Virus record (IMG/VR): IMGVR_UViG_3300044998_000596
Coordinates: 1-47,986 of that record
From: a virus
DNA length: 47,986 nucleotides
Strand: one strand, 5' to 3'
Shown piece after piece: positions 1,926 through 19,049 of this stretch. The translations under genes were made by a program, and so were the position numbers. Under the pieces are notes generated by a model that was not told where the DNA came from, made no database searches, and was given only the letters and a program-made list of their open reading frames with translations. Within the stretch, counting starts at the first letter, position 1. Each line of letters starts with the position of its first letter.

Positions 1926-2480
1926 ATGGCAGGATTACCACATTATCAAAACTCGCTCTCTGCAACCAACAGGTTTGAACCGGTTTATTTGAACCAGTTT
2001 GAGGTTACAATCATACCTCCTGCGGCTGTTTTGGGAGGTGACATCCTTCTCCAACACGTCACAAAGGTTAGCGGTCTATCTTTAGATAAAAACCCTGGAT
2101 TGGTAACTCAAAAATATAAGTTCGCTAAAAGGAACTATGCAGGTGCTAAGCCTGACACTACCTTTATGGACTTGAGTCTTAGTTTCACTATAAACTTGAA
2201 TGATGACAATTCAATGTACGTATTTAAAACACTAAGACAATGGAGTGATTTAATCTATAACCCACTAACCGGTGCGATGGGTCTTAAGAATGACTATGTT
2301 GGAACGATAGTGATTTCAATCTTCAATAAACAAGGTGATGTTTTCAGAAGAATTACTTGTAGAGATTGTTACCCAACCAAACCAGTCAATCCGATGAATC
2401 TAAACTATACATCGACCGACATCTATAAAATAGACGATATGACTTGGGCGGTTGATTATTGGGAAGATCTATTCTTATAA
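1926..2480 (+). CDS. Tail tube protein (gp19-like), copy 1
   Basis: Subunit of the inner tail tube through which DNA passes. The 184-residue length is close to T4 gp19 (163). Recognisable family features are the N-terminal NRFEPVYLNQFEVTIIPP segment, a central KFAKRNYAGAKPD loop and the C-terminal half with RQWSDLIYNPLTGAMGLKND, GDVFRRI and a terminal DYWEDLFL. It follows the sheath gene by 41 nt and is followed 17 nt later by a close paralogue with the same start (MAGLPH) and end (DYWEDLFL). Which copy forms the bulk of the tube cannot be told from sequence. Confidence 0.9.
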   Translation: MAGLPHYQNSLSATNRFEPVYLNQFEVTIIPPAAVLGGDILLQHVTKVSGLSLDKNPGLVTQKYKFAKRNYAGAKPDTTFMDLSLSFTINLNDDNSMYVFKTLRQWSDLIYNPLTGAMGLKNDYVGTIVISIFNKQGDVFRRITCRDCYPTKPVNPMNLNYTSTDIYKIDDMTWAVDYWEDLFL

Positions 2481-2497
2481 AAAAAGTTAAAAATTAA

Positions 2498-3073
2498 ATG
2501 GCAGGTTTACCACATTTTACTAACTCAAGAGCGGCGATAAACAATTTTGAACCTGTTTATCTGAATCAATTTGAGGTGATCATTAGTCCTCCAGCAGGTA
2601 TTATTGATGCAACCACCACGTTCAAGGGTGAAACCATATTGACCCAACAAGTTAAATCGATCACAGGTTTAGCAGTGGATATATTACCAGCTGCAAACGT
2701 TGAGCAAAACTATAAATTTGCCACAAGAAGATACGCTGGAGGTGAGCCTTCAACCTCTGATATGACTCTCACTATGGAATTCGAGGTCAACTTAAATGAT
2801 ACTAATTCCATGACAACATACAAAATTCTCAGACAATGGAGTGATTTGATCTATAACCCTTTAACAGGTGCGATGGGCCTCAAATCTGATTATGTTGGTT
2901 CTATGGTTATTTCAGTATTCAACAAAAGAGGAGACGTTTTCAGAAGAATTAGAATACCTTCATGTTTCTTGAGTGAAGCTATTAATGCTATGGAATTAGA
3001 TTACGAGAATCCCGCTATCTACACAGTTAGCACCTCTTGGATATGCGACTACTGGGAAGATCTATTCTTATAA
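2498..3073 (+). CDS. Tail tube protein (gp19-like), copy 2
   Basis: Second tail-tube paralogue, 191 residues. It shares MAGLPH, NNFEPVYLNQFEVIISPP, RQWSDLIYNPLTGAMGLKSD, GDVFRRI and DYWEDLFL with the upstream copy, but has a seven-residue longer N-terminal half (around TTFKGETILTQQ) and a diverged loop before the last strand. The two are clearly homologous but not near-identical, so the duplication is old and both are probably kept by selection. The gene closes the sheath-tube-tube unit and is followed by a strong terminator. Confidence 0.9.
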   Translation: MAGLPHFTNSRAAINNFEPVYLNQFEVIISPPAGIIDATTTFKGETILTQQVKSITGLAVDILPAANVEQNYKFATRRYAGGEPSTSDMTLTMEFEVNLNDTNSMTTYKILRQWSDLIYNPLTGAMGLKSDYVGSMVISVFNKRGDVFRRIRIPSCFLSEAINAMELDYENPAIYTVSTSWICDYWEDLFL

Positions 3074-3162: not shown

Positions 3163-4302
3163 ATGGATTTCATGAGCAATTTTTCACCCGAAGAGATACT
3201 AAGAAAAAAGGAACTAGAAGGAGGCCTGGAATACGATCCGATTCCAGAAAATCAAATTTTGGCCGAGAGACCTCCGGTTACTTCTGAAGCTGCTGTTGAA
3301 ATACCAGCACCGATACAACAACCTGTGGTTGAACCCGTTTTTAAAAGTAATCCCACACCCACATCCGAGCCTGAAATTAAACAGCAATACCAGACTCAAG
3401 AACCATTAAATCCACCCATTAGCTCATTGGGAAAATCCCAGAAAATGAAATCCAGCACTGAAGATAATATCGGGTGGAAAAATATTCCAATTCACTTGCT
3501 TCCTTCTATGGGTATGTTCTATCCAGAGGGGACCAAAATTGCTATTAGAGCAGCAGAGGTAAAGGAGATAAGGTTCTTTTCTACCATAGACGATGATGAT
3601 AATTTGGACATTGAAGAAAAGTTATCGTACGTTATCGATAGATGTAGTAGAATGGAATTTCCCGGAGAGGGTTTAGTTTCATATAAGGATCTCAAACAGG
3701 AAGATAGATTCTTTATTGTCTTGGCAATTAGGGATTTGACTTTCGTCAAGGGTGAAAATATGATCATACTAAAGCCTTATAAAAAGTGCAAATCAACCCC
3801 AGATTGTCCATTTAATCACGGAATAGAACTCAGAACAGGTGTATTAAGCTCTTACGAAATAGATCCTCAGATCCTCAAATACTATGATGCTTCGACTAGA
3901 AGCTTCGTCTTTGAATCAAGCAAAATAGGCAAGAGAATTGAAATTTCGATTCCTAGTATAGGAGTTACGCAAGAGATTGCTAGTTTCTTGAGAGAAGCCG
4001 CTAAGAGGGGAATTGAAGTTGATGACGGTTTTGTTTCCATATCACCTTTCTTATTTAATGACTGGAGATCTTTATCGTTTGAACGTATTTTAGGAAAGCT
4101 CAGAGAAGTTGATAATTTCTGGAGTAAAGAAGAATATAGCTTATACTTCGAACTTTCTGAAAGAATTAAGATAGGAACGAAATTAGAAGTTAAATTAGAA
4201 TGTCCAGTATGCGGTGAGAAGGAGGTCACCGCCAATATTACCTTTCCCGGAGGGCTCAGATCTCTTTTCGTTATTTCAAATATCTTTGGAGAACTTCTTT
4301 GA
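3163..4302 (+). CDS. gp26/gp51-like baseplate or tail assembly chaperone-like protein
   Basis: The 379-residue protein has a Pro/Glu-rich disordered N-terminus (about 1-95) and a folded C-terminal part resembling the T4 baseplate hub assembly family (gp26/gp51 type). Visible features are IPIHLLPSMGMFYPEG near 107, FFSTIDDDDNLDIEEKLSYV near 137, a Cys pair in the KKCKSTPDCPFNHG region, and a CPVCGE zinc-ribbon-like pair near the C-terminus. The gene lies between tail tube and a tape-measure-like gene, the position of the tail assembly chaperone in most tailed phages. It ends in CTT TGA with a second frame overlapping it, as in gpG/gpGT frameshift pairs. The family call is moderately sure; the chaperone role is inferred from position and frameshift. 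Confidence 0.7.
   Translation: MDFMSNFSPEEILRKKELEGGLEYDPIPENQILAERPPVTSEAAVEIPAPIQQPVVEPVFKSNPTPTSEPEIKQQYQTQEPLNPPISSLGKSQKMKSSTEDNIGWKNIPIHLLPSMGMFYPEGTKIAIRAAEVKEIRFFSTIDDDDNLDIEEKLSYVIDRCSRMEFPGEGLVSYKDLKQEDRFFIVLAIRDLTFVKGENMIILKPYKKCKSTPDCPFNHGIELRTGVLSSYEIDPQILKYYDASTRSFVFESSKIGKRIEISIPSIGVTQEIASFLREAAKRGIEVDDGFVSISPFLFNDWRSLSFERILGKLREVDNFWSKEEYSLYFELSERIKIGTKLEVKLECPVCGEKEVTANITFPGGLRSLFVISNIFGELL
4288..4302 (+). promoter_or_regulatory. Candidate programmed +1 ribosomal frameshift site (CTT TGA)
   Basis: The stop of the chaperone-like gene is preceded by CTT, giving CTT TGA at 4297-4302. This is the slip site of the bacterial RF2 gene, where the Leu tRNA shifts from CUU to UUU. A GGAG lies 5 nt upstream of the CTT at 4288-4291, comparable to the stimulatory Shine-Dalgarno of RF2 but 2 nt further away. 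A +1 shift here enters the frame that runs to 4480. Seen directly; function is inferred. Confidence 0.6.
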
Positions 4303-4480
4303 TATTAAATTTAGACTCTGGAAAGAACACGGACTAGATCCAGAATGGATTGAAACTATACCTTTTTATGAATATCAAATTTGGATTGATAAACTCAACG
4401 CCGTAATAGAAGTTGAAAACGCCGAAGCTCAAAGCAAGGATGGATTAAAGCAAATCTTCAATTTTACCAAGGGAAGTTAA
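4301..4480 (+). CDS. Frameshift extension of the chaperone-like protein (gpGT-like C-terminal part)
   Basis: This second frame continues for 59 codons after the proposed +1 shift and reads DIKFRLWKEHGLDPEWIETI then PFYEYQIWIDKLN. The open frame reaches back only to a GTG at 4214 and a TTG at 4286 and contains no ATG at all, so independent initiation is unlikely. The fused product would be about 438 residues. The Trp/Tyr-rich helix with a PFYEY motif is similar in style to the T part of other tail chaperone GT fusions. The next gene, 35 nt downstream, has a tape-measure-like motif, the usual partner of such chaperones. If there is no frameshift, this would be a small protein starting at TTG 4286. 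Confidence 0.65.
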   Translation, partial: DIKFRLWKEHGLDPEWIETIPFYEYQIWIDKLNAVIEVENAEAQSKDGLKQIFNFTKGS

Positions 4481-4515: not shown

Positions 4516-6051
4516 ATGGACAACAACCAAAAGCTTATATCCCAAATCGCAGATCTAAGTAGAAATTTGAATCTGATGAATGATTCTCTAAAGAGAAACA
4601 CACAGTCAATTCAAGCTCTAGTAGATGTTACGCCTACATCAGAAGCAGAAAAGCCAACAAAATCTGAAAAATCTCCAATTGAGAAAGATTTAAAAGACCT
4701 CTCTAGTGTGCTTTCTAAAATGATGTCTCCAGAAAGTCCCCTTTCTAAAATAGCTAAAGCCATGGAGGAATCGTCTTCCAAACCTGTCGACTTCACTAAA
4801 ACTGGAGAGATTAAAGGTGCATTCCAAACTGGCGGAGTTGCAAAACAAGAAGGTAATTATGTCGTTGGAGAAAATGGACCAGAGGTTGTCAAGCTCCCTA
4901 AAGGTAGCGGAATCATTCCTATTAACACTAAAGATTTAATAGAAGGTCTGAAGAAAGTTCCGGAACTTTCAGCTCTCCTTAAGGAAGGCGACGTTGTAAA
5001 TGTAACTGGTGAATATTACGACAAATCCATATTATCCTCTGACGGAAAGAGAATAAGCCTAAATAAGCTTATTAATAAATATGAAGATGAGACATTCTTT
5101 TCTGATGACGAGACAAAGGATAAGAAGACAGCGGAAAGATTGGAAAAGAATCTAAAATCTTTAGAGGATCTTCAGAAGGCAGCAGATGATAAATTAAACT
5201 TCGAGTTCAATTCGATAAGGGAAGAAAAAATGAAGTTGGATTCCCAAAGAGGAGGAGCAGAACCGCCTGAACAATTTGAAGAGAAGTTAAGAATATCCAA
5301 AGATATTTTAAAAACTCTTCCACCTGAGGAGCATACCGAACTCGCAGTTGCCAAAGCTAGACTCGAAGCTGAGAAAATAATACTTGCTAAGTCTCTGGAA
5401 AGAAGTGAAGCGAAACCAACTGGAAAGACTGAATCGTCAGAAACTGCTGTTTCTAAAACCGACCTAAAGAAGCTAAACACTGAAGCCAAAACCTCTGAAT
5501 CTAAATCAGAATCAGAAAAACCTGGAAAGGAGAAAGGCCCGGGAGTTTTTAGTAAACTTGGAAGTCAGCTCAAAAAAAGTGCAGGAAGAGTAGCCGAGGG
5601 TGTAGCCGATAAAACTGGGATTAGTGGAATCCTTTCTGTTGGTAAAAAAGCTCTTGAGTCTAGATCAGAAAAAAATAAATCTGAAAAGTCTTCAACTGCA
5701 GCTTCGAGTGAATCTAAAGGTGAACCTTCAGAAATGAAGAGGAGTGTACCAGCTTTAGCTGCACTCCCACCTAAACCTGAGCCTAAACCAGAACCTCCTA
5801 AAACAGAAGCACCTAAACCACCTAAACCTGTTGAATCTAAAAAAGAATCGGTGACATCTGCGTCATCAGAACCTGCTTCTGCTAAGTCTACTACTCCAAG
5901 TAGAAAGGAAGAAGAATCCAAAGAAAGTATTACTCCTGCAGATCTAAATGATATAAAATCCGCACTTGCAAGAATAGCATCTTTATTAGAGGGTCCAATA
6001 ACGGTCTCTTCTATGGACGGACCATTTAGACCTGATTCTAGAAGGGTATAA
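4516..6051 (+). CDS. Probable short tape-measure-like tail protein
   Basis: A 511-residue, very polar protein. Residues about 1-30 form a predicted coiled coil (DNNQKLISQIADLSRNLNLM). Near residue 108 it has the segment GNYVVGENGPEVVKLPKGSG, the Gly-Glu-x-Gly-Pro-Glu motif often found in tail tape-measure proteins. A charged helical middle follows, then a long Lys/Ser/Glu/Pro low-complexity region with repeated PKPEP-like units (about 410-480) and a short folded C-terminus. It stands directly after the frameshifted chaperone-like gene, where a tape measure is expected, and its length is near T4 gp29 (590). The long disordered region is unusual for a tape measure, so the role is inferred. It could instead be another hub or scaffold component. 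Confidence 0.55.
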   Translation: MDNNQKLISQIADLSRNLNLMNDSLKRNTQSIQALVDVTPTSEAEKPTKSEKSPIEKDLKDLSSVLSKMMSPESPLSKIAKAMEESSSKPVDFTKTGEIKGAFQTGGVAKQEGNYVVGENGPEVVKLPKGSGIIPINTKDLIEGLKKVPELSALLKEGDVVNVTGEYYDKSILSSDGKRISLNKLINKYEDETFFSDDETKDKKTAERLEKNLKSLEDLQKAADDKLNFEFNSIREEKMKLDSQRGGAEPPEQFEEKLRISKDILKTLPPEEHTELAVAKARLEAEKIILAKSLERSEAKPTGKTESSETAVSKTDLKKLNTEAKTSESKSESEKPGKEKGPGVFSKLGSQLKKSAGRVAEGVADKTGISGILSVGKKALESRSEKNKSEKSSTAASSESKGEPSEMKRSVPALAALPPKPEPKPEPPKTEAPKPPKPVESKKESVTSASSEPASAKSTTPSRKEEESKESITPADLNDIKSALARIASLLEGPITVSSMDGPFRPDSRRV

Positions 6052-6764: not shown

Positions 6765-7403
6765 ATGCAGCAAATTAAAGAAACGAACATTCAAAAATTA
6801 GCTGAGGATTTTATCCAAAGCAAAAGCGACAAATCATTTGCAAATCTATTTAACAGACTTAAGCCCGGAGTCTCAAATCACTGCTTCTTAATTCTTAAAG
6901 ACGTGGAGTTAGCTGAGGATGCTTTTCTGAACACTATGTCAAAAATATGGCTGAAGATTGATCAATACAACCTTGAAAGAGGTAATTTTTCGACCTGGTG
7001 TTATAATATAGCTCGAAATGAATCTTTGCTCCTTATGAAATCTAGAAAGAAGCTTGTTAATCACGAGGATATTGACCTAGAGTTTTTATCATCAAAGAAC
7101 ACGATAGGAGATTTAGGCGGGGTTTATACAATCGAGGACGATCCTGCTTATGCTTTCTTTAGTGAAGAAAATACTATTGATGCAGTGTATGAATCGGTTC
7201 TCGATGAAATCAGATCCCTTCCCGAAACATATCGTGATATTATGATAGATAGAGAGATTCACGGCATGAAGTACAAAGACATTGCTGAGAAATACGGGAT
7301 CAAGAAAAGATCTATTGCAACCAGGATCAGAAGAGCTAGAGGTAGAATCAGAAAGCAGATTGACGGGAACAATAAGCCTAAAGCCAAGTATAAAAAGAAA
7401 TAA
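6765..7403 (+). CDS. ECF-like sigma-70 family factor
   Basis: Predicted RNA polymerase sigma subunit, 212 residues. Region 2 is at about 20-95, with the SFANLFNRLKPGV start, an EDAFLNTMSKIW helix and a FSTWCYNIARNE segment typical of region 2.3/2.4. Region 4 is at about 145-195, with LPETYRDIMIDREIHGMKYK, then a helix-turn-helix DIAEKYGIKKRSIATRIRRA. The tail is Lys-rich. The gene follows the dCMP deaminase by 5 nt under a host-type promoter, so it is probably made early and could redirect host polymerase to middle or late genes. A separate gp55-like factor is encoded at 14347, so this is a second phage sigma. Confidence 0.88.
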   Translation: MQQIKETNIQKLAEDFIQSKSDKSFANLFNRLKPGVSNHCFLILKDVELAEDAFLNTMSKIWLKIDQYNLERGNFSTWCYNIARNESLLLMKSRKKLVNHEDIDLEFLSSKNTIGDLGGVYTIEDDPAYAFFSEENTIDAVYESVLDEIRSLPETYRDIMIDREIHGMKYKDIAEKYGIKKRSIATRIRRARGRIRKQIDGNNKPKAKYKKK

Positions 7404-17390: not shown

Positions 17391-19049
17391 ATGGCAGGAT
17401 TTTTAGATTTTTTAAAACCTAACGAATCAGCTCTTGGTAATATTCTAAGAAATCTGAGCAAAGTATCCAAGTTTGGAATGGAGTACGATGATATGGTTGT
17501 TCGTAACTCACAGGCTATTGGTAGAAGTGAGGGATATTTTTTCAATCAGCAAGGTACTGGATTCACCCAAGATGATGCTTTTTATTGGACACTTTCATAT
17601 CAAGACACAAAAGTTAGAAAATACATAGCTTATTTTGATAAGGACTACATCGAAAAAAGAAACTTTCTTAGAAAGTTTTCTCTTAACGGTGAGATTGAAT
17701 TTATTCTCGATAGCATAACAGACGAAGCAATCTCTTATGATGATAGAAACTTTTTTGCAACACCTTCGTTCATAAATCTTGATCTGAAAGAAAAAGTTAT
17801 CGATAGAATTGCTTCACATTACAATAGGCTCTATAACATTTTTGGCTTTCAGAATTCAATATTAGGCTGGCAATTTTTTAGACAATTTCTAGTTGATGGA
17901 TTCTTAGCTTTTGAGATCATCTACGATAGCAAAGGAAAAGAAGTTATAGGTTTCAAGGAACTTGATGCTACATCTTTACAGCCAGCAGTCGAGAAAATTG
18001 GTGAAAATGAATATCAGCAATTCTGGATTCAGTATCCTAAGAATCCACAAATGACTAGAAAACTTACAAATGAGCAAGTAATCTATATTTCCTATGCTAA
18101 AGGAAATAGCGTTTCTAGAGTAAGTTATGTTGAAAGATTGGTTAGATCGTACAACATTCTTAGAATCATGGAAAATTCTAGAGTTATCTGGAATGTTATG
18201 AATGCTTCTTATAGAATGAAATTCGTAATCCCTACTGGAAGTCAATCACCACAAAAAGCCATGCAGACTCTGGGACAATTAATGTCACACTACAAGGAAG
18301 AGATCAACATAAATGATGCTTCTGGTGAATTGACAATTAATGGACGTCCTAAGGTACAATTTTACAAGAACTATTTATTTCCTGAAATGAATGGACAATC
18401 TCCTGAGATTTCTTCGTTGAATCCTTCGGGTCCAGATTTCAATGTCATGGAAAATGTTGTTTATTTCTTTAATAAATTGAAGATGGATTCTAAACTTCCT
18501 TATGCAAGATTTGCAGCAAGAAGTGCAGGTCCTTCACAATATAAAATTAGTATCGATGCTCTTGAAAGAGATGAGATAAGATTTGAAAAGTTCCTTAGAA
18601 GATTAAGATCGATTTTCCAAGAGATCTTAGTTAAACCTCTTTATATCCAAATGTGTTTAGATTTCCCAGAATTAGCTAGAGACAGAAGCTTCAAGGTGAA
18701 CCTAGGACTTAATTTTCATAGAGAAAACGAATTCGAAGAAATGGTTCAACTTTCAAATTACACAAAGAGAAGCGAATTCATTAAAGGTCTAGGAGAATTC
18801 AAAGTTAAATTGGGAGAGGAGGAAAAACCGTATTTTGATAACAACTTCCTTATTCAAAGATTCCTTGGTTTAACACCAGATCAGATTAAACTCAACGAGG
18901 AGTATAAAAAGAGAGAAGAAAAAGCTGCTCCTAAAGAAGGCGGAGAAACACCAGAGGCTGGCGGAACAGCAGCACCAGAAGGTGGCGGAGAGACTCCTCC
19001 AGAAGGCGGCGGAGAAACCCCAGAAGGAGGAGAAGAAACTACCCTATAA
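17391..19049 (+). CDS. Portal protein (gp20-like), copy 2
   Basis: Second full-length portal paralogue, 552 residues. It matches copy 1 along its length, for example FSLNGEIEFILDSITDEAIS, WQFFRQFLVDGFLAFEIIYD, VIYISYAKGNSVSRVSYVER, NGRPKVQFYKNYLFPEM and FLRRLRSIFQEILVKPLYIQ. Divergence is moderate, so both were kept long after duplication. The C-terminus has a low-complexity tail of Gly-Gly-Glu-Thr-Pro-Glu units from about residue 515. Either a mixed portal ring or one copy with a changed role is possible. Confidence 0.9.
   Translation: MAGFLDFLKPNESALGNILRNLSKVSKFGMEYDDMVVRNSQAIGRSEGYFFNQQGTGFTQDDAFYWTLSYQDTKVRKYIAYFDKDYIEKRNFLRKFSLNGEIEFILDSITDEAISYDDRNFFATPSFINLDLKEKVIDRIASHYNRLYNIFGFQNSILGWQFFRQFLVDGFLAFEIIYDSKGKEVIGFKELDATSLQPAVEKIGENEYQQFWIQYPKNPQMTRKLTNEQVIYISYAKGNSVSRVSYVERLVRSYNILRIMENSRVIWNVMNASYRMKFVIPTGSQSPQKAMQTLGQLMSHYKEEININDASGELTINGRPKVQFYKNYLFPEMNGQSPEISSLNPSGPDFNVMENVVYFFNKLKMDSKLPYARFAARSAGPSQYKISIDALERDEIRFEKFLRRLRSIFQEILVKPLYIQMCLDFPELARDRSFKVNLGLNFHRENEFEEMVQLSNYTKRSEFIKGLGEFKVKLGEEEKPYFDNNFLIQRFLGLTPDQIKLNEEYKKREEKAAPKEGGETPEAGGTAAPEGGGETPPEGGGETPEGGEETTL

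Follow-up and report, generated by a model that had tools for sequence, protein, structure and literature searches.

A putative +1 frameshift at UUU_C, preceded by a likely conserved hairpin, in a gp26/gp51-like chaperone gene of large phages

Introduction

Phage T4 was listed in a 2016 review as an exception to the G-T frameshift rule of tail assembly chaperones (PMC5009743). As cited in PMC10885494, Vladimirov, Gautam and Davidson (2022) identified gp26 and gp51 as the proteins that serve T4 as tail assembly chaperones. In phage Konradin, both proteins were already annotated as tape measure protein assembly chaperones. Vladimirov and colleagues reportedly described frameshifting for several T4-like groups in that 2022 work.

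Signals for +1 frameshifting in bacteria are of several kinds. In the E. coli prfB gene, an SD-like element is located 3 nt from CUU (AGGGGGUAUCUUUGA; PMC8710568), and UUU_Ynn sequences are prone to +1 shifts (PMC5009743). Moreover, upstream hairpins stimulate +1 shifting on 70S ribosomes, where they stand in for the SD duplex; this precedent concerns CUUUGA without RF2, not a sense codon in the A site (PMC6321510). Bacteroidia have an occluded antiSD (PMC8710568), and a hairpin that stands in for the SD duplex would therefore be useful in these hosts.

Here, we analysed a stretch of 47,986 nucleotides of viral DNA (IMG/VR record IMGVR_UViG_3300044998_000596, positions 1 to 47,986; hereafter the window), in which a gp26-like gene is followed by an overlapping +1 frame.

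Results

The gp26-like gene lies in a T4-like structural module

The features considered in this work are as follows.

1926–2480, + strand: tail tube protein (phrog_45/phrog_3629 tail tube; PF06841 gp19, 0.004)
2498–3073, + strand: second tail tube protein (phrog_45 tail tube, 1e-6)
3163–4302, + strand: G (TAC-N), the short product, a predicted gp26-like tail assembly chaperone of 379 aa (phrog_36717, 7e-20; phrog_150 'baseplate hub', 2e-4)
4211–4232, + strand: likely RNA hairpin GCGGUGA-GAAGGAGG-UCACCGC with a 7-bp stem (-12.2 kcal/mol, z -3.3)
4218–4225, + strand: hairpin loop, displaying GGAGG (4221–4225)
4233–4242, + strand: 10-nt spacer between hairpin and slip codon, of identical length in the megaphage-type clade
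4243–4248, + strand: putative +1 slip site UUU_CCC, placed by conservation (the P-site UUU would re-pair on UUC, with CCC in the A site)
4243–4302, + strand: dual-coding overlap of the end of G (frame 0) and the start of the T domain (+1), with a synonymous diversity of ~0
4244–4480, + strand: T domain (TAC-C) in the +1 frame, beginning FPEGSDLFSLFQISLENFFDIKF (phrog_634 'baseplate hub assembly catalyst', 2.2e-4)
4297–4302, + strand: CTT TGA, the frame-0 end of G, apparently a by-product of +1 Phe-Asp codons
4516–6051, + strand: tape-measure-like gene, 511 aa (phrog_19914 tail length tape measure protein, 1.4e-4, limited to a short stretch)

The G/GT gene is located between the tail tube genes (1926–3073) and the gene at 4516–6051, and a tail sheath gene is also present upstream of G. 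The order tube, G, GT, tape measure proposed by the first-pass annotation thus holds, with the last gene weakly assigned as tape-measure-like from a short motif. An ORF of 454–608 aa is the next one downstream in 15/15 close loci examined, 13 of which carry the motif GExGPE. The window also encodes a T4-type major capsid protein (Gp23) and two T4-type portal proteins, which identifies it as a T4-like structural module. The portal genes (Gp20, PF07230; 15794–17389 with 7.5e-56, 17391–19049 with 5.9e-64) adjoin each other, an unusual tandem pair. Likewise, the two tail tube genes belong to the same family and stand in tandem, and two are also found in several relatives. A sigma-70 family factor (regions 2 and 4) is encoded within the module at 6765–7403.

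Searches with tblastn revealed relatives in Lak phages, huge phages of the LR756500 type, Sphingomonas phage PAU, Tenacibaculum phages pT24 and PTm1, Chryseobacterium phages MA9V and Flavobacterium phage MaF61. Judging by these named relatives, the hosts presumably belong to the Bacteroidota. Two sets of IMG/VR loci were compared: a close set of 80 (L014–L093), reduced to 79 by excluding L014, which is near-identical to the window, and a more distant set of 80 megaphage-type loci (L100–L179). A scan with the MA9V-1 protein yielded no matches, and one with the PAU protein returned only PAU itself.

G and T are related to gp26 and gp51

Profile-profile comparison of the G family with the T4-like gp26/gp51 families gave a probability of 96.7 (E 4.8e-10) over 204 columns. 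The T domain matched the T4-like T domains with a probability of 80 (hhalign, E 1.4e-5), and this match includes the +1 stretch upstream of the TGA. The link to T4 was settled by these profile-against-profile comparisons; comparing the profiles with single T4 sequences by hhalign gave no information. Among the 19 members, phrog_150 was matched by 5 and phrog_634 by 10; for PF12322 taken alone the match remained below its cut-off. In T4, gp26 and gp51 share matches to PF12322 and phrog_150, and phrog_634 is matched by gp51 only, via its C-terminal part. These profile matches show that G and T are homologous to gp26 and gp51, and G and GT presumably function as chaperones. The suggestion of the first-pass annotation that gp26/gp51 are the T4-type version of the G/GT pair had already been published (Vladimirov et al. 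2022). The fold model reached moderate confidence (mean pLDDT 65). It retrieved only relatives from a viral library and nothing significant from the PDB (HK97 chaperone, E 3.9), and a sequence search of the PDB gave chance matches only.

A conserved +1 frame overlaps the end of G

The frame-0 ORF (3163–4302) ends with CTT (4297–4299) and TGA (4300–4302), and GGAG (4288–4291) is located 5 nt ahead of CTT, exactly as first annotated. Equally correct was the description of the +1 frame, which is open from 4199 to 4477 (stop 4478–4480), extends 59 codons beyond the TGA and contains GTG 4214 and TTG 4286 as its only possible starts, ATG being absent. This arrangement far exceeds what chance would give: 55/57 unique relatives keep a frame-0 TGA at the equivalent codon, and their +1 frame extends ~57–60 codons further. 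Every relative aligned (19 diverse phages) has its T domain in the +1 frame. As in G/GT gene pairs, the second frame overlaps the first and is conserved, and its own start is missing in many relatives. In the window's relatives, the T domain was not found in the −1 frame at a heptamer like U_UUU_UUC.

Some relatives differ in detail. In the Lak phages L002 and L005, the T domain is located in the +1 frame downstream of the frame-0 stop, frame 0 ending with TTT TAA, and in Lak-B a TAG interrupts the T domain under the standard code. The T domains of L095–L179 and of the named phages end in a conserved short C-terminal K/M-P tail (e.g., YKVPKFKTPKI or FSMPSF) after a low-complexity linker; this tail is absent from the window's clade.

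The sequence TTT CCC (4243–4248) lies 57 nt 5′ of the TGA. It is invariant in 79/79 close IMG/VR relatives (57/57 unique close loci) and in 80/80 of the megaphage-type loci, and in all 79 close loci besides L014 it is found 19–21 codons before the end of frame 0. According to clade, UUU_C is followed by CC, CT, AA or GA (the last three as TTT CCT, TTT CAA and TTT CGA), and UUU, presumably in the P site, followed by a pyrimidine, the UUU_Ynn pattern, is present as TTT C in all loci of L014–L093 and L095–L179 with a readable site. In the window, CCC is rare and accounts for 7.9% of Pro codons.

The phase of variation changes at this site. Synonymous diversity is about 0.2–0.7 upstream and drops to ~0 between TTT CCC and the stop. 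Upstream of the overlap, the frame-0 third position is the most variable (0.54 vs 0.38 and 0.40); within the overlap it is the frame-0 first position, i.e., the +1 third position (0.209 vs 0.046 and 0.091), and downstream of the stop it is again the +1 third position. Correspondingly, 19 changes within the overlap alter frame 0 and are silent in +1 and 9 do the opposite, vs 31 and 138 upstream (Fisher p = 3e-7, for change types that are phylogenetically non-independent). In the megaphage-type clade the overlap is almost invariant. Because the phase switches after TTT CCC, the +1 frame appears to be translated from about TTT CCC on. Furthermore, PAU, pT24, PTm1, MA9V-1 and huge phages preserve the +1 peptide SDLFSLFQISLENFF, encoded 5′ of the TGA, and the +1 consensus SxLFSLFQISLxNxF upstream of the TGA spans PAU, pT24, PTm1, MA9V-1, MaF61 and huge phages. 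At the level of sequence conservation, these patterns show dual coding from UUU_C onward, and the exact slip codon would be UUU (4243–4245). Two observations qualify this placement. UUU_C stands at a differing place in MA9V-1, PTm1 and LR756504, which counts against it. In addition, a second in-frame UUU_CCC at 3658 indicates that the tetranucleotide alone cannot suffice; this control site has no preceding hairpin with a GGAGG loop and is not conserved (nine loci, rough pattern match).

A change of frame could in principle also reflect slippage during transcription, an indel introduced by sequencing or decay of the gene. We regard this as so improbable as to be nearly negligible: nothing more than the frame change itself points to it, whereas the arrangement is repeated in about 160 contigs from independent assemblies, a long homopolymer is absent at the site, and purifying selection acts in both frames.

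CTT TGA is not conserved together with the +1 frame

The first-pass annotation proposed an RF2-type frameshift at CTT TGA. In that case ribosomes would pause at UGA (4300–4302), and peptidyl-tRNA-Leu would slip from CUU to UUU, perhaps making this a second, minor site. CUUUGA is indeed a known +1 site, and XTT TGA is present in 55/57 unique close loci. However, the selection for +1 coding begins 57 nt earlier, and the hexamer is lost where the +1 frame is kept. This is the case in three close loci (L056, L067 and L068); in L067, TTC GAC removes the frame-0 TGA while maintaining the same +1 residues (FFDL), and L056 has lost the frame-0 TGA as well, with its +1 frame intact. Likewise, frame 0 ends with CTT TAA in L095–L099 and with GAA TAA or AAA TAA, never CTT TGA, in L100–L179. 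Moreover, the SD-like element before CTT TGA is not conserved among relatives (AGAG, GTCA and others), and none is kept at the RF2 spacing. A slip at CTT TGA would also omit SLFQISLENFF, which is alignable with other T4-like T domains and lies within a predicted helix (375–388). CTT TGA is best regarded as a by-product, because the same bases read Phe-Asp (TTT GAT) in the +1 frame. On the basis of the variation phase and of the relatives without CTT TGA, it was rejected as the slip site, and we consider an RF2-type shift very unlikely.

Of the earlier proposal, the programmed +1 fusion of a gp26-like to a gp51-like domain stands, and the slip site and the RF2 type do not. As conservation puts the slip at UUU_C (4243–4246), the junction would be Phe361-Pro362 instead of Leu379-Asp380. 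The predicted GT fusion comprises 438 aa, with the residues ITFPEGSDLF... across Phe361-Pro362 (window form EVTANITFPEGSDLFSLFQISLENFFDIK).

A hairpin is likely conserved upstream of UUU_C

Over 44 rows, 93.5% of the pair cells of the 7-bp hairpin are kept, vs 26–64% for slid versions, and three pairs have changes on both sides. In the megaphage-type clade the stem is a different one, GUGUGG...CCACAC; it is 97.6% paired, and 4 rows have C-G in place of U-A. A covariance model gave a single match in the window and also matched the correct place in L096, L099, L135, L153 and L170, which were not in the building set. It yielded no match in T4, phiAS5, Cygsa01 or Syn33, and no element in pT24, MA9V-1, MaF61, PTm1 or Lak. 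As compensatory changes are few, the conserved hairpin structure is likely rather than proven. No downstream (3′) structure rose above shuffles. Stimulation by the SD sequence only was considered and rejected: relatives do not all preserve GGAGG (it is reduced to GAGG in L016, L055 and L059), and the motif is separated from UUU by 17 nt. The hairpin itself would be the +1 stimulator.

The GGAGG in the loop (4221–4225) resembles a ribosome binding site, which raises internal initiation as an alternative: the T domain would be a separate protein, made from GTG 4214, TTG 4286 or another codon, and no fusion would arise. Annotators often call a separate small ORF here, and megaphage-type loci carry +1-frame ATGs at -29/-26. 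These ATGs fall within the conserved domain, however, and +1 conservation starts well upstream of them. Furthermore, GTG 4214 is situated upstream of GGAGG, and it is implausible as a start because it lies inside the 5′ arm of the conserved hairpin. In 20 loci (L016, L017, L019–L025, L029, L031, L033, L035–L041 and L045), there is no ATG, GTG or TTG in the +1 frame from the upstream stop (-59) to +40, and the occluded antiSD of Bacteroidia (PMC8710568) likewise speaks against this route. Internal initiation as the sole source of the T domain is thus highly improbable in our view. In L100–L179, the ATGs at -29/-26 might additionally give a truncated T protein. A one-frame fusion or an ATG start without slip site, which the first-pass annotation had named as evidence against frameshifting, was not seen among the relatives, although the megaphage-type loci do have these in-frame ATGs within the overlap.

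Discussion

The data make it highly probable that the locus encodes a G/GT chaperone pair by means of a +1 slip at UUU_C, with the upstream hairpin as the likely stimulator. Most ribosomes would read 3163–4302 and yield the short chaperone G of 379 aa. Some would slip at the point where tRNA-Phe occupies UUU (4243–4245) and the rare CCC stands in the A site: tRNA-Phe would re-pair on UUC, and translation in the +1 frame to 4477 would give GT, 438 aa in length with the T domain at its C-terminus. Once the ribosome has passed over it, the 7-bp hairpin could refold, with the end of its 3′ arm 10 nt ahead of UUU, approximately at the position of an SD-antiSD duplex. G and GT would be expected to coat the tape measure and to recruit the tail tube, as in lambda.

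In the literature searched, we found no published description of the +1 site or of the hairpin. As far as this search extends, the use of UUU_C and a 5′ hairpin for +1 shifting by large phages of Bacteroidota type appears to be new. Only tentatively do we propose that it might represent a new class of bacterial +1 signal, in which a refolding 5′ hairpin 10 nt before UUU_C replaces the SD-antiSD duplex in large phages that presumably infect Bacteroidota, in which the antiSD is occluded. Whether upstream hairpins drive +1 shifts on bacterial ribosomes could be tested in this compact natural system, in hosts with the antiSD tucked away. In addition, the annotation of Lak-like, megaphage-like and Flavobacterium phages would gain a long chaperone that is now omitted or called as a separate small ORF.

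The window shares with prfB (RF2) the CTT TGA hexamer that ends frame 0 and the +1 polarity; unlike prfB, the hexamer is not conserved in the wider family, there is no SD at 3 nt (the spacing being 5 nt), and entry into the +1 frame takes place further upstream. Influenza A PA-X, which shifts at UCC_UUU_CGU (PMC5009743), has no evident stimulator, whereas the window has the likely conserved 5′ hairpin. In lambda, gpG and gpGT are likewise a short and a frameshifted long chaperone encoded between the tail tube and tape measure genes, but the shift is −1, and no sequence match was established in this analysis.

Within the gp26/gp51 family, T4 gp26 ends like G, and gp51 combines a G-like body with a T-like C-terminal domain. 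In T4, however, these are two paralogous genes on opposite strands, in contrast to one gene with a +1 shift in the window. The phages phiAS5, Aeh1, Syn33, S-SSM7, SFP10, Cygsa01, Vibrio D506 and Yut3 belong to the same family and also have the T domain in another frame, right after the short protein and in several cases before a long gene. In these eight T4-like phages, this is the −1 frame, with nearly no overlap, and T TTT TTC, ATT TTC or CTT TTC is located one codon ahead of the stop; the window has a +1 shift, with UUU_C 19 codons ahead of the stop and a 5′ hairpin. In L186 and L188–L194, from phages of Aeromonas, cyanobacteria, Salmonella, Vibrio, Pseudomonas and Stenotrophomonas, the gp51 C-terminal domain follows T TTT TTC or (A/C)TT TTC in the −1 frame, and annotations mostly list it as a small gene of its own or omit it. 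Taken together, these comparisons suggest that one protein family has arrived at three genetic solutions, namely a −1 shift, two genes as in T4, and a +1 shift with a hairpin, by which large phages of Bacteroidota type would reach the long chaperone in a third way.
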